NCBI RefSeq assembly: GCF_014200045.1
Contig: NZ_JACHOV010000008.1
Coordinates: forward strand, 124,001-188,000
Length of the DNA: 64,000 nt
Direction: 5' to 3'
Source: Rhizorhapis suberifaciens
GTDB taxonomy: Bacteria; Pseudomonadota; Alphaproteobacteria; Sphingomonadales; Sphingomonadaceae
The translations under genes and the position numbers were made by a program. A model generated the notes under the pieces. That model searched no databases and had not been told where the DNA came from. It saw only the letters and a program-made list of their open reading frames with translations. Numbering within the stretch: position 1 is the stretch's first letter; each line of letters opens with the position of its first letter. This document shows, one piece after another, positions 46,850 to 53,215 of the stretch.

Positions 46850-49759
46850 ATGGGTTTCGAGGGTCAGGATTTCGAAGGCATTGAGGGCGTGAGCCCCTCC
46901 TTCGTGGAATCGCTCTACCGCCAGTTTGCCGTCAACCCCTCGAGCGTCGCGCCTGAATGGCAGCGCTGGTTCGACGGGCTGGAACAAAGCGCTTCCGGGC
47001 CGAGCTGGCAGCGGAAGAACTGGCCCCCAGTAAACGATGACAGTTTAACGGCTGCCCTCGATCCAACCCAGATGGTGGTTGAGGGAAAGTCGGCCAAGCC
47101 GGCCAAGGCTGCTGTCTCGGCCTCCGACATTGCCGCCGCCGCCGCGGACTCGATCCGTGCCATGATGCTCATTCGCACCTATCGCGTGCGCGGGCATCTG
47201 GCCGCCAATCTCGACCCCCTCGGCCTTAGCAAGCGGGACTTGCCTGCGGATCTGACCCCTGAATATCACGGCTTTACCGGCGCTGATCTTGACAAGCCTG
47301 TTTATCTGGGCGGCGCTCTGGGCCTTGAAAACGCTACCGTGCGTGAACTGGTCGACATCTTGCGCGCCAACTACTGCGGCAATGTTGGGCTGGAATATAT
47401 GCACATCTCCGACGTGGAGGAGCGCCGCTTCCTTCAGGATCGCATGGAGGGCAAGGACAAGGCCATTGAATTCACGCCGGAAGGCAAGAAAGCGATTTTG
47501 GCCAAGGTCATTCACGCCGAGCAATATGAGAAATTTCTCGGCAAGAAATATGTCGGGACCAAGCGCTTTGGCCTGGATGGCGGCGAATCCATGATCCCGG
47601 CGCTGGAAAGCGTCATTAAATATGGCAGCCATTATGGCGTGCGCGAGATCGTGTACGGCATGGCGCATCGCGGCCGCCTCAACGTGCTGGCCAATGTCAT
47701 GGCGAAGGGCTTCCGCGTCATCTTTCACGAATTTTCGGGTGGCACAGCCAATCCCGAGGACGTCGGAGGATCAGGCGACGTCAAATATCACCTTGGCACC
47801 TCGACCGACCGCGAGTTCGACGGCGTCAACGTCCACATGTCGCTGGTGCCTAACCCATCGCACCTTGAAACCGTCGATCCGGTAGTGCTCGGCAAGGTCC
47901 GCGCGCAGCAGGTGATTCGCGACGACCTCGCGCAGCACAAGGAAGTGCTGCCGGTTCTCATCCACGGCGATGCGGCCTTTGCAGGTCAAGGCATCGTCTG
48001 GGAATGCCTCGGTTTTTCGGGCATTCGCGGATACAATACTGGCGGCTGCATCCACTTCATCGTCAACAACCAGGTGGGCTTTACCACCTCGCCGCAGTTC
48101 GCACGCTCCTCACCCTATCCCAGCGATGTGGCCAAGGGGGTGCAGGCGCCCATCTTCCACGTGAATGGCGATGATCCTGAGGCCGTGACCTTTGCCTGCA
48201 AAATGGCGATTGAGTTCCGCCAGACCTTCCACCGCGACATCGTCATCGACATGTGGTGCTATCGCCGCTTTGGTCACAATGAGGGCGATGAGCCCAGCTT
48301 CACGCAGCCGCTGATGTACGCCCAAATTCGGAAGCATCCGCCGGTCAGCGAAATCTACTCGGCGCGCCTAAAGAGCGAAGGCGTGGTTGATGACAGCTTT
48401 GCCGCATCGGTGACCGCTGAATTCACCGGACATCTCGAAGACGAGTTCGATAGCGCAAAAAGCTACAAGCCCAACAAAGCGGATTGGTTTGCGGGCCGCT
48501 GGTCGGGCCTGCATCAGCCCGCGGACATCGAAACTGCTCGGCAGAATGTCGATACCGCAATCGAAAAGAAGCTGTTAGACAGCCTTGGCCGCACCCTGAC
48601 GGCAGTTCCGCAGAACCATAACGTCCACAAGACACTCCGTCGTATCCTGGACCAGAAGGCGGAAATGTTCCGCACCGGTCAAAATTTCGACTGGGCCACT
48701 GGGGAGGCGCTGGCTTTTGGCGGCTTGCTTTCCGAAGGCTATAGTGTGCGCCTTTCGGGCCAGGATTCAGGGCGCGGCACTTTCAGCCAACGGCACAGCG
48801 TCTGGGTCGATCAGAACAGCGAAGAGAAATATATTCCGCTCTCGACTGTTCCCCATGGGCGCTTCGAGGTGCTGGACAGCCCGCTATCAGAATATGGCGT
48901 GCTCGGTTTCGAATATGGCTATGCCATGGCCGATCCAAAAACACTGGTCCTCTGGGAAGCGCAATTCGGCGATTTCGCCAACGGCGCACAGATCGTAATC
49001 GACCAATATATTGCCTCTTCGGAATCTAAGTGGCTACGCGCCAACGGCCTCGTCCTGCTGTTGCCTCATGGTTATGAGGGTCAAGGCCCCGAACACAGCT
49101 CCGCGCGCCTGGAACGCTATCTGCAGCTTTGTGCAGAGGGCAATATCCAGGTAGCGAACTGCACCACGCCCGCAAATTACTTCCATATCCTGCGGCGGCA
49201 AATGCTGCGTTCCTTCCGCAAGCCGCTCATCATCATGACCCCGAAGTCGCTGCTTCGTCATAAAATGGCGGTGTCAAAGGCCGAAGATTTCATGGGCGAC
49301 ACGCATTTCATGCGAATATTGTCGGATCCCAGCGCGCCCAAGGACGAAGATACGAAGCGCCTGGTCCTTTGCACGGGCAAGGTAGCCTATGACCTGATCG
49401 AAGCGCGAGACGCGGCCGGTGACAAGAATACCCAGATCGTCCGCCTCGAACAGCTTTACCCCTTCCCCGCCGAGCCGCTGGTGACGCGTCTGAAACGCAT
49501 GACCAATCTGGAAGAAATTGTGTGGGCGCAAGAAGAGCCCAAGAATAACGGTGCCTGGTTCTTCGTCGAGCCCTATATCGAACAGTGCCTCACCCAGGCG
49601 GACATCGGGCCAAAGCGCGCCCGCTATGCCGGCCGCAAGGCATCCGCCTCCCCGGCTACCGGCCTTGCCAAGCGCCACGTCGCCGAACAGGGCGCGCTAG
49701 TCGCCGATGCTCTGGGGCACAGCGTCCGTGAAGAAATCAAACGCCAGCAGAAGGGTTGA
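46850..49759 (+). CDS. sucA: 2-oxoglutarate dehydrogenase E1 component
   Basis: The thiamine-diphosphate E1 subunit of the oxoglutarate dehydrogenase complex, 969 residues. The N-terminal helix [20 protein letters not shown] binds E2/E3, as in other OdhA/SucA proteins. Further motifs are [20 protein letters not shown], the ThDP-binding [20 protein letters not shown] (about 372-391), and the transketolase-like central region [12 protein letters not shown]. It overlaps nothing upstream but is followed by sucB after 8 bp. The same reaction type is also encoded by korAB earlier in the window. Confidence 0.96.
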
Positions 49760-49767
49760 TCAAGACC

Positions 49768-51006
49768 ATGGCAATCGAAGTCAAAGTGCCGGTTCTCGGC
49801 GAATCCATCACCGAAGCAACGGTCGGCCAATGGTTGAAGAAGCCTGGTGATCCAGTGGCCGCCGATGAACCGGTTGCCAGCCTTGAAACCGACAAGGTCG
49901 CGATTGACGTGCCTGCTCCCAAGGCCGGCGTCATGGGCGATCTGGTGGTGGCTGAAGGCGACACGGTCGAGGTCGGCGCAATTATCGCCTATATCCAGGA
50001 TGGCGTCGGAGCCCCCGCAAAACCCGCTGCACAGGCTCAAGCGGCATCCGCACCTGCCGCCGCTGCGGCTCCGGCTCCGTCCCTTGAAGCGGTATCAACT
50101 GAAGGCAGTTCCGCCGCGCTCACCCTGTCCCCTGCCGTCCGCCGGTTGGTGCTGGAGCATGGGCTTGATCCCAGCAGCATCAAAGGATCGGGCAAGGACG
50201 GCCGCCTCACCAAGGATGACGTCATGTCTGCCGTCGAAGCCGGAAGTGCACGTCCCGCGACGCCTGCACCCGCTTTGACTCCTGTCGCCGCTCCGGTCGC
50301 CGCCGGCCGCAAGGAAGAACGGGTCCGCATGACCCGCCTGCGCCAGACCGTCGCCAAGCGCTTGAAAAGCGCTCAGGAAAATGCGGCCCTGCTCACGACC
50401 TTCAACGATGTCGACATGACCGCGGTCATGGAGGCGCGCACCAAATATAAGGACCTGTTCGAAAAGAAGCATGGCGTCCGGCTTGGCTTCATGGGCTTTT
50501 TCGTGAAAGCCGCCTGCATGGCGCTGAAGGATGTACCTGCAGTAAATGCCTTCATCGAAGGCGACGAGATCGTGTACCACGACTATGCCGACATTTCGGT
50601 CGCGGTCAGTGCTCCCAATGGCCTTGTCGTGCCGGTCATCCGCGACGCACAGGACATGAGCGTGGCGCAGGTCGAGCGGACCATCGGCGACTTCGGCAAG
50701 CGCGCCAAGGACGGCTCGCTCACCATCGAGGAAATGAAGGGCGGCACCTTCACCATTTCCAATGGCGGCGTCTTCGGCTCGCTGCTCTCCACCCCGATCA
50801 TCAACCCGCCGCAGAGCGCGGTTCTGGGCCTCCACCGCATCGAGGAACGGCCGGTCGTCGTGAACGGTCAGATCGTGGCGCGGCCGATGATGTATCTGGC
50901 GCTATCCTATGACCATCGCATCATCGACGGGCGCGAAGCAGTGACGTTCCTGGTGGCGCTCAAGAACGCGATCGAGGATCCGACCCGGTTGCTGATCGAT
51001 CTGTAG
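49768..51006 (+). CDS. sucB: Dihydrolipoyllysine-residue succinyltransferase (E2 of OGDH)
   Basis: Core E2 of the oxoglutarate dehydrogenase complex, 412 residues. The lipoyl domain (1-76) has its lipoyl Lys at K43 in [13 protein letters not shown]. An Ala/Pro-rich linker leads to a peripheral subunit-binding domain ([20 protein letters not shown]) and the catalytic domain ending with the His in [15 protein letters not shown]. The ATG at 49768 is used because AAGGG lies well before it; a TTG at 49756 overlapping the sucA stop would be too close to any ribosome binding site. Confidence 0.95.
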
Positions 51007-51011
51007 TTTCA

Positions 51012-51371
51012 GTGCTCCTGCGAAAGCAGGAGCCCAGGGTGGAGGGCACCACGAAAGCAGGCTTCGTTTACCTGATGGCCAACCGGCGAAATGGAACGCT
51101 GTATCTCGGCGTGACCAACCATCTCGTGGCACGAGCCTATCAGCACCGCAAATGGCCTGATCAACGGCTTCACCCGGGAACATGGCTGCAAATTGCTGGT
51201 CTGGTACGAGCATTATGAGGACTTGCAGAAAGCGCGCCGTCGCGAACTGCAAATGAAGAAATGGAAACGGAGTTGGAAGGTTGAGCTGATAGAGCGGGAA
51301 AACCCCCAATGGCTGGATCTGTTCGACCGCTTGTTCTGAACCACCCTGGGCTCCTGCTTTCGCAGGAGCAC
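51012..51371 (+). mobile_element. GIY-YIG element with perfect 31-bp terminal inverted repeats
   Basis: The ends at 51012-51042 and 51341-51371 are exact inverted copies over 31 bp. Each contains its own hairpin (GCTCCTGC, four bases, GCAGGAGC) followed by CCAGGGTGG on the inner side. The 360-bp unit holds one small GIY-YIG nuclease gene and lies between sucB and lpdA. I see no clear target-site duplication. A possible relative lies at 45669-45846, and a solitary hairpin with the same core at 37751. Confidence 0.8.
51039..51339 (+). pseudogene. GIY-YIG nuclease gene, disrupted by a frameshift
   Basis: The first frame (GTG at 51039) gives GFVYLMANRRNGTLYLGVTN, which contains the F-V-Y...L-Y-L-G-V form of the GIY-YIG motif and the first catalytic arginine region. 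At about 51151-51155 an extra base shifts the frame. The following frame continues as NGLINGFTREHGCKLLVWYE and ends EREN...LFDRLF at the TGA 51337-51339. The total length of 301 nt is one base over a multiple of three. So the gene was probably a roughly 99-residue UPF0213/GIY-YIG type protein and now is inactive, unless a ribosomal frameshift occurs or the base is a sequencing error. Confidence 0.82.
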
Positions 51372-51387: not shown

Positions 51388-52782
51388 ATGGCAGAGTTCG
51401 ACTATGACGTCCTGGTAATCGGTGCTGGTCCCGGTGGCTATGTCGCCGCCATTCGTGCAGCGCAGTTGGGCTTGAAAACGGCCTGTGCGGAAGGGCGAGA
51501 AACATTGGGTGGAACCTGCCTGAATGTCGGCTGCATCCCGTCCAAGGCACTCCTCCACGCGTCGGAACTCTATGAAGAAGCTGCCTCCGGCGCGCTTGAA
51601 AAGTTCGGGGTTAAAATAACGGGCGCGAAGATCGACGTGGCGCAGATGCACGCGGAAAAAACCAAGGCGGTAGGAGAGCTTACCGGCGGGGTCGAGTATC
51701 TCTTTAAAAAGAACAAGGTTGATTGGCTGAAGGGATATGCCGCGTTCAAGGACGCGCATACAGTCGAAGTGGCAGGAAAAAGCTATAGCGCGAAAAACAT
51801 CGTCATTGCCACCGGTTCATCCGTCACCCCGCTGCCGGGCGTAGAAATCGACGACAAGGTTATCGTTGACAGCACGGGCGCGTTGGCCCTGTCCAAAGTG
51901 CCCAAGCATATGGTCGTTATCGGAGGCGGAGTCATCGGCCTTGAACTCGGGTCCGTATGGCGTCGTCTGGGCGCGAAGGTGACAGTGGTCGAATTTCTTG
52001 ATCAGTTGCTTCCCGGAATGGACAGCGAAGTACGCAAGGAAGCCGCCAAGCTGTTCAAGAAGCAGGGATTTGAGATCAAGCTTTCCACAAAGGTCACCGG
52101 CGCTACCGCCAAAAACGGCAAGGCGGAGCTGACCGTGGAGCCAGCCGCTGGCGGCGCTTCGGAAACGATCGAGACCGACGCAGTCCTCGTCGCCATCGGC
52201 CGCCGACCCAATACCGACAAGCTGGGGCTGGAAAATGCGGGCCTCGTCACCAATAATCGCGGCCAGATAGAAACCGACCATGATTTCTCTACCAAGGTTG
52301 CTGGCATCTGGGCGATCGGCGATGTTATTCCGGGGCCCATGCTCGCGCATAAGGCCGAAGATGAAGGCATTGCCGTTGCAGAGAACATCGCCGGCCTTAC
52401 CGGCGTGGTAAATCATGACGTCATTCCGGCGGTCGTCTATACCTATCCGGAAATCGCCAGCGTCGGCCTGACCGAAGAGCAGGCGAAGGAACGCGGCGCG
52501 GTCAAGATCGGTAAATTTCCGATGCTGGCCAACAGCCGGGCAAAGACGAACCGCGACACGGACGGCTTTGTAAAGGTCATCGCGGATGCCGACACCGACA
52601 AGGTGCTCGGCGTCCACATAATTGCTTCGGTCGCGGGCACCATGATTGCGCAGGCGGCGCAAGCGATGGAATTCGGCGCGTCGTCGGAGGATATCGCCTA
52701 CACATGCCACGCGCACCCCACGCATAATGAAGCGGTCAAGGAGGCCGCCATGGCGGTTCTGGGCAAGCCGATCCATATTTGA
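51388..52782 (+). CDS. lpdA: Dihydrolipoyl dehydrogenase (E3)
   Basis: FAD flavoprotein that reoxidises lipoamide in the OGDH and related complexes, 464 residues. Motifs: VIGAGPGGYVAAIRAAQLG for FAD, the redox pair C44/C49 in GGTCLNVGCIPSKALLH, NAD-binding VIGGGVIGLELGSVW, and the C-terminal HAHPTHNEAVKEAAM with the catalytic His. An AGAGG ribosome binding site precedes the ATG at 51388. It is the last gene of the suc block and is separated from sucB by the inverted-repeat element. Confidence 0.95.
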   Translation: MAEFDYDVLVIGAGPGGYVAAIRAAQLGLKTACAEGRETLGGTCLNVGCIPSKALLHASELYEEAASGALEKFGVKITGAKIDVAQMHAEKTKAVGELTGGVEYLFKKNKVDWLKGYAAFKDAHTVEVAGKSYSAKNIVIATGSSVTPLPGVEIDDKVIVDSTGALALSKVPKHMVVIGGGVIGLELGSVWRRLGAKVTVVEFLDQLLPGMDSEVRKEAAKLFKKQGFEIKLSTKVTGATAKNGKAELTVEPAAGGASETIETDAVLVAIGRRPNTDKLGLENAGLVTNNRGQIETDHDFSTKVAGIWAIGDVIPGPMLAHKAEDEGIAVAENIAGLTGVVNHDVIPAVVYTYPEIASVGLTEEQAKERGAVKIGKFPMLANSRAKTNRDTDGFVKVIADADTDKVLGVHIIASVAGTMIAQAAQAMEFGASSEDIAYTCHAHPTHNEAVKEAAMAVLGKPIHI

Positions 52783-53215
52783 CCGGAGCGCTGCCGCTCG
52801 GGCGGGGGCATAGGTGCGTCTTGTTTACATTGAGCCGTTCGTCCGGAGCGTAGTTGGAGGACGTTGGCCGGTCGGCGCGTTCTAGGCTAGGTTCGCAAAA
52901 TGAAGAGTGATCCGTCCAAACAGGACATGATCATCCTAGATTATCTCGCCACCGTTTATGCCGAGCCCTTCGACTGCCGGCAAAGCGGCGCTCAAAATAA
53001 ATTTCAGCCTTCTGAAGTCGAGAAGGTTGAGCCAAGCCGCTGTCCCTCGACTTCGCTCGGAACGAACGGCTTGTCCAAGATCGTCGGGCGCTACTGTCAC
53101 GAGCCCCCAAGACTCCGGGCTCCCGGCTATGCAGCGCACATCTACCGCCCCTCACCATAGCCCTTCCCCTCCAATCCCAACACGGATACCCTCGGCTACG
53201 CACCACGAGGTAACT
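52783..53215. other. Gene-free stretch with palindromic repeats before astB
   Basis: A 433-bp spacer. A degenerate repeat arm starting CCGTTCGT lies at 52835-52860 and one ending ACGAACGG lies at 53044-53069; both belong to the family seen between korA and korB. After 52860 the copy continues with a GACGTTGG segment also present in the korA-korB loop when read on the other strand. No open frame here looks like a real gene. GAGG at 53207-53210 is the ribosome binding site of astB. Confidence 0.65.

Follow-up and report, generated by a model that had tools for sequence, protein, structure and literature searches.

Small GIY-YIG nuclease genes are associated with CGTC-type REPs, hairpin repeats that bracket them as matched inverted arms. 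Nuclease and repeats together probably constitute a two-part mobile system that resembles the REPtron and is built around an enzyme unrelated to RAYT. A 2013 survey (Di Nocera; PMC3733652) concludes that CGTC-type REPs "apparently lack a dedicated transposase". These REPs include Neisseria dRS3 and Rickettsia RPE-4/RPE-6; passages of the same survey equate dRS3 with the CGTC-1 elements of Neisseriae and allow TGTC and CCTC head variants. A GIY-YIG partner would offer a bench-testable answer to this missing transposase, involving a protein of ~100 residues and a hairpin of ~27 nt. If the system is real, it provides a role for genes annotated merely as "GIY-YIG nuclease family protein" and means that two unrelated nucleases each have REP systems. 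Among the papers listed from the open full-text literature, judged by title and abstract opening, we found none that connects GIY-YIG genes to REPs, REPINs, RAYTs, or dRS3, a mention elsewhere being possible; the passages of PMC6006769 that were consulted do not mention GIY.

A bracketed GIY-YIG pseudogene between sucB and lpdA

The window, a 64-kb stretch of the Rhizorhapis suberifaciens genome, contains a compact unit between sucB (49756-51006, plus strand), whose stop codon lies 5 bp before it, and lpdA (51388-52782, plus strand), which starts 16 bp after it; these gene names were assigned in the original prediction and are consistent with the translations. The arms of the unit (left, 51012-51042, plus strand; right, 51341-51371, minus strand) are 31 nt long and 100% complementary. 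Each folds into a hairpin with an 8-bp stem and a 4-nt loop (in the left arm, 51014-51021 pairs with 51026-51033), with z values of -4.3 and -4.2 and 0 of 200 shuffles as stable. The left arm is oriented with its head GT outermost and its tail inward. The loop is GAAA and the tail carries CCA, while the stem is preceded by GT (aGTGCTCC), with no unpaired CGTC head. Enclosed by the arms is a single small GIY-YIG gene (51039-51339, plus strand; the GTG at 51039 is one start-codon candidate) that is read in two frames, the N-terminal half sharing its frame with position 51012 and the C-terminal half lying one frame on and ending at a stop codon at 51337-51339. Because a copy at the same sucB-lpdA site in a same-genus genome (G001, locus L023) is uninterrupted, with both hairpins slightly diverged, we regard the window copy as broken by a frameshift. 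The arm alignment, the folds compared with shuffles, the translations, and the intact relative bear out the original description of this unit as a single, frameshifted GIY-YIG gene between exact 31-bp inverted repeats that are themselves hairpins. A scan of the window for GTC[AG] or GTGC with a perfect 7-9 bp stem gave only two matches, both of them the unit's arms, and no Rfam family was matched within the window. Downstream of lpdA, positions 52833-53071 hold a 30-nt imperfect inverted repeat (80%) of another sequence type.

The same hairpin is dispersed through the 3.36-Mb genome, where it occurs in 16 copies (24 nt, up to 3 mismatches) compared with 0 for a control pattern. Four opposite-strand pairs have starts 36-49 bp apart, and the hairpin is found several times in head-outward doublets with a short spacer, which is a REPIN-like architecture. 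Given the copy number and the opposite-strand pairs, the hairpin is a dispersed REP-like repeat and no chance palindrome, confirming the original impression that the ends look like REP-type palindromes. That prediction had also held that repeats occurring mostly without a GIY-YIG gene would count against it. Literally, this is what the genome contains, as 14 of the 16 copies lie outside the ends of the window unit, but the observation does not discriminate, because RAYT systems, as described in a passage of PMC6006769, likewise have just one full-length gene for each REP type. Three PF01541 matches are present in the genome: the window gene, a second small gene (L009), and one inside a frame longer than 600 aa, read as uvrC. 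The gene at L009 is bracketed by CGTCATTCCCGCGAAGGCGGGAATCCATC and its inverse, ends in which the CGTC head, stem, loop, and tail are all present, as they are in the elements of many relatives. Each of the genome's two small GIY-YIG genes is thus bracketed, and the hairpin type differs between them.

At the sucB-lpdA position, 30 family loci were compared, of which two lie at contig edges and seven have no located lpdA, leaving 21 readable. The gene is present in three of these, namely the window genome, G028, and G029, with G001 a fourth carrier outside this count, and the gene is broken in G029 too. Four loci (L203, L212, L218, and L219) have REP hairpins only, as a REP doublet without the gene, and three others (L200, L206, and L224) have spacers of just 14-15 bp, so that an empty form of the site, whose absence from all relatives would have spoken against the original prediction, does exist. 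The element seemingly stayed at one site. Its frameshift, together with the related gene at the same site in G001, G028, and G029, suggests that the window copy is old, and the unit is probably a decayed, long-resident member with a variant head.

Matched arms, unit copies, and sites without the unit

Loci for a wider survey were gathered by protein similarity, mostly top matches first and with the flanks not considered, and are mostly proteobacterial. The resulting 188 loci comprise 36 from the genus and family, 20 lower family matches, 80 named genome records (the best 80 of at least 578 matches), 25 of 30 from the phylum, nine from a plasmid collection, and 18 of 20 several-copy loci, the last picked because their genomes hold many copies. 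Omitted before this count were L157-L161 (repeats) and L230 and L239 (contig ends), and L299 and L300 were scored apart; dropped from the 188 were L110 and L123 (short flank), L026 (fragment), and L095, L168, and L169, which represent the same genes as L052, L098, and L146. The arm score was taken from the best local alignment of 250 bp of upstream sequence with the reverse complement of 250 bp of downstream sequence, and values of at least 36 counted as matched arms.

Both-sided inverted arms were found at 141 of the 186 loci with enough flank and at 139 of 182 after removal of repeats and the fragment, so the unit of gene and hairpin ends recurs systematically. Among the controls, arms were seen in 3 of 827 windows displaced by 0.9-2 kb and around 4 of 273 neighboring genes (complete frames of at least 120 aa), these four including L052 and L095, one element counted twice. 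By set, arms were present at 31/35 family loci, 15/20 loci of the family tail, 54/77 named records (from the best 80 of at least 578 matches), 15/23 phylum loci, 8/9 plasmid-collection loci, and 16/18 several-copy loci. A stricter test, requiring a head-outward GTC hairpin on each side, was positive on both sides at 94/186 loci versus 4/827 shifted windows; in the same test, GTC heads point inward on both sides at 24/186 loci, as expected from doublets. On viral-labeled contigs (51 loci, less L310, L329, and L342, which were short, and two repeats), arms were seen at 37/46 loci versus 0/251 controls, with overlap with the 182-locus set possible, and a search of phage genomes returned no match.

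The arms lie close to the gene, at median distances of 34 and 19 bp from its matched part. Bracketed loci come from Sphingomonads, Rhizobiales, Azospirillum, Xanthomonadales, Neisseria, and Magnetococcales, and from single records labeled Nitrospirae, Planctomycetes, and Uhrbacteria; in Neisseria gonorrhoeae, the GIY-YIG gene sits between CGTCATTCCCGCG doublets. No both-sided arm match at threshold was obtained for 43 of the 182 loci, among them L028, L031, and L033, which have one-sided or diverged doublets, and L060, L063, and L064, which are at background score. Arms were likewise absent from one of the nine plasmid-collection loci (L192) and from L300. At L195, on plasmid p1 of Planktothrix agardhii, the GIY-YIG gene has a restriction-modification gene on one side and a DISARM helicase gene on the other, and is accompanied by an unrelated, longer inverted repeat (score 36). 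CCTC-headed hairpins flank the gene on both sides between hflX and mazG in Sinorhizobium (L190 and L276-L278), where adjoining repeat units of one strain are missing from others.

Some genomes hold several copies of the unit, which are 84-91% (G314), 76-88% (G202), and 87-94% (G135) alike over about 400-740 bp, with surroundings otherwise unlike and hairpin ends constant. For three pairs (L226/L231, L228/L231, and L231/L233), similarity stops within ~4 bp of the hairpin feet, at ...CTT-CGTCATTC and GAATGACG-AAG.... Similarity reaches up to ~60 bp beyond the feet in other G314 and G202 pairs and further in L226/L227, and in the G135 copies it begins ~45 bp outside the left foot. The units at L226-L233 and L245 (G314, G202, and G218) have unusually long hairpins (CGTCATTCTAGGGCGGAGCAAGGAGCGAAGCGACGC...), and several of these copies contain in-frame stops.

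Sites without the unit are found at other positions as well. In Azospirillum lipoferum 4B, where the sufB-sufC spacer holds the unit, it measures 617 bp; three relatives without the unit, whose matched parts are 95-97% identical, have spacers of 91, 87, and 129 bp. The first two of these unit-less spacers (L301 and L302) have no CGTC-type hairpin, and the third (L303) contains an inverted repeat that differs in sequence. In Shinella, the unit is absent from five records and present in three. The comparison with empty sites that the original prediction had envisaged thus yielded sites lacking the unit and no base-exact boundary: neither a base-exact junction nor a target duplication was found at zapE-mdh (30 genomes of one genus, with gene names read from translations) or in Rhizobium, Shinella, Sinorhizobium, pNL2, and Azospirillum, where the flanks are too diverged, and these junction comparisons gave presence/absence or shared elements. 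Sinorhizobium M103, C101, and K101 were considered as empty sites and rejected, as the gene is present there and other repeats are missing. Several units occupy spacers of central-metabolism or Fe-S genes, as at L188 (sufB-sufC), L246 (zapE-mdh), and the window (sucB-lpdA); in two of these three spacers, the flanking genes are co-stranded and operon-like.

Such distributions could also arise by homing, which we consider unlikely: a free-standing homing endonuclease would cut REPs or doublets, and its gene would be copied into existing doublets via recombination between REP arms. Free-standing homing enzymes of the GIY-YIG type are well established and share with the present units a mobile small GIY-YIG gene. 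Homing would suit the resemblance of gene-bearing units to a REP doublet with its spacer swapped and the gene-less doublets at four sucB-lpdA loci. It agrees less well with the two close relatives that have neither the unit nor a CGTC-type hairpin at sufB-sufC, or with same-genome copies that lie in unlike surroundings and not at alleles. Unlike homing endonucleases, the units have terminal inverted hairpins and seemingly no fixed allelic site: relatives hold copies at several places per genome, but the window unit has one site shared by four genomes.

Hairpin type, protein lineage, and REP number

A mobile system in which the nuclease and its hairpins work together remains the preferred reading, and the two were compared across elements and genomes. 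Among 68 distinct GTC-N20-CCA ends, 84% of stem cells are paired, compared with 65% for shuffled partners (maximum 69%) and 26-48% when slid; for 35 distinct N21 ends, the figures are 79% versus 56%. Since stem sequences differ between elements and yet pair, the stems covary. Mapped on the protein tree, the loop types of 111 elements (70 GNAN and 41 CTTG, typed by simple regular expressions that may hold further errors) require 9 changes, compared with a mean of 33.4 and a minimum of 25 in 1000 shuffles. Within the window's family, 42 elements require 5 changes versus a shuffle mean of 13.1 and a minimum of 9 of 300, a figure whose underlying typing wrongly assigned six long-hairpin elements to CTTG; these six were omitted from the 111-element test. 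Shared inheritance of the gene and its ends accounts for at least part of this linkage, and such co-inheritance would itself be expected of a mobile unit. Per genome, REP type matches element type moderately (p = 0.025, with part of each genome's elements typed).

REP number also follows the gene. With two patterns (GNAN and CTTG) that were written after the ends had been seen, counts in 149 family genomes have a median of 10.5 in the 104 genomes with the gene and 0 in the 45 without it (p = 1e-10; Spearman 0.61), and subtraction of two ends per gene leaves medians of 6 versus 0 (p = 1e-4). In discordant same-genus pairs, the gene-bearing genome has more REPs in 11, fewer in 1, and the same number in 4. 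The correspondence is incomplete in that 13 gene-bearing genomes of the 149 have zero REPs of the two patterns and 20 gene-less ones have at least one. A second, distant family of 74 genomes gave a median of 6 in the 17 with the gene and 0 in the 57 without it (p = 2e-5; complete genomes only, 7 versus 29, p = 0.003), at a gene cut-off of E 1e-15 versus 1e-6 in the first family, with several "without gene" genomes having weak matches at 1e-7 to 1e-8. At least 10 REPs are present in 4 of the 45 first-family and 4 of the 57 second-family genomes without a detected gene; hence, REPs persist in the absence of the gene.

This persistence is compatible with hitch-hiking, in which the REPs are moved by another enzyme and GIY-YIG genes are cargo trapped between two of them. 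We judge this quite improbable, as neighboring genes are almost never bracketed (4/273) and hairpin type tracks the protein tree; associations of CGTC REPs with transposase genes are, in a passage of PMC3733652, few and fortuitous.

The GIY-YIG enzyme and a proposed two-part system

Returning to the nuclease as the REPs' own partner, all 25 relatives that we compared match PF01541 (GIY-YIG); the sole other Pfam match is T5orf172, in four of them, and no HUH Y1 transposase was matched. Y10, Y21, R31, E68, and N87, which we take to be the GIY-YIG active site, are invariant in 25/25. The predicted structure is confident (pLDDT 92) and corresponds to a minimal GIY-YIG domain. Its best solved match, and the only one with an E-value under 0.001, is the UPF0213 protein of PDB 1ZG2; another UPF0213 protein, UvrC, and Slx1 come next with weak E-values. 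For two of three proteins NCBIfam has no model, and the third is sub-threshold. In 10 of 11 pairs, dN/dS is 0.07-0.24, with one pair saturated, and the protein is therefore maintained by purifying selection. The distant relative YhbQ of E. coli, which carries the annotation of a DNA damage response nuclease, lacks a bracketing repeat (score 16). Hairpins can end transcripts, and one might thus see in these genes YhbQ-like host repair nucleases flanked merely by terminators, a reading made highly improbable by arms that match each other as inverted repeats and are repeated in the genome, and by a gene number that, within one family, ranges between genomes from 0 to 10.

In the proposed two-part system, a full unit would be a stand-alone GIY-YIG gene between head-outward REP hairpins, with the window unit as a decayed copy and lone hairpins or inverted doublets as non-autonomous partners. 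What we infer beyond this architecture concerns recognition, cleavage, the joining step, and target choice. The nuclease most likely recognizes the ends as a single-stranded hairpin or a cruciform and would cut at the CGTC-type foot, after which the excised or copied unit would be joined or repaired into a new site. Distorted or branched DNA is the kind of substrate on which UvrC and Slx1 act, which makes hairpin or cruciform cutting plausible. The GIY-YIG protein would thereby play, through an unrelated enzyme, the role that RAYT (HUH) transposases play for GTAG REPs. Against this proposal stand the loci that lack matched arms, the REPs in genomes with no detected gene, the loci with inward-pointing heads, the failure to find a base-exact junction or target duplication, the apparent immobility of the window element, the moderate agreement of REP type with element type, and REP patterns composed after the ends had been seen. 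The original prediction had suggested that the window unit may be a minimal mobile element whose nuclease acts on its own hairpin ends. Recurrence of the hairpin-gene-hairpin arrangement (139/182), REP ends that also occur as free doublets, and unit-less sites support part of that idea, whose strong support comes from the family-wide association with CGTC-type REPs and not from the one unit to which it had been tied.

The closest known counterpart is the REPtron (RAYT/TnpA-REP, GTAG REPs, and REPINs), which likewise has one small gene with inverted REP hairpins on both sides, hairpins dispersed singly and as doublets, and a gene type linked with hairpin type. It differs in having an HUH Y1 transposase instead of a GIY-YIG nuclease and a GTAG foot instead of CGTC (GTG in the window). 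Similar copies of whole units are present here, whereas REPtrons do not seem to transpose as a unit, as a passage of PMC6006769 reports. The CGTC REPs, as described in PMC3733652, have an 8-9 bp stem, a 4-5 nt loop, a CCA tail, and head-to-head dimers, and correspond to most element ends found here; unlike in that account, where they are reported without a dedicated transposase, they are paired here with a GIY-YIG gene, and the window hairpin has a variant head. The nearest solved structures, namely stand-alone GIY-YIG proteins (UPF0213 1ZG2 and YhbQ), the UvrC N-domain, and Slx1, share the GIY-YIG domain, but E. coli yhbQ has no bracketing repeat.

A more far-reaching proposal, for and against which we see roughly equal weight, is that the CGTC REP superfamily has its transposases in the small GIY-YIG nucleases. 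These enzymes would then define a new class of bacterial mobile element, in which hairpin-ended DNA is cut out and inserted by a nuclease of ~100 residues that uses no HUH, DDE, or recombinase chemistry, REP doublets are non-autonomous, and other nucleases (DUF559) may run parallel systems.

In Sphingomonas parapaucimobilis (L305:689-1134, NZ_CP155753.1), the sufB-sufC spacer holds a gene for a DUF559 endonuclease; on both sides of it, reading by eye showed another inverted hairpin, CCCCTCCCCTTCAGGGGAGGGG. A scan of viral contigs with one DUF559 protein found no relatives. At four further DUF559 loci, matched arms are present in L357 and L358 and absent from L359 and L360, and DUF559 genes with their hairpins are possibly a second nuclease-hairpin system.
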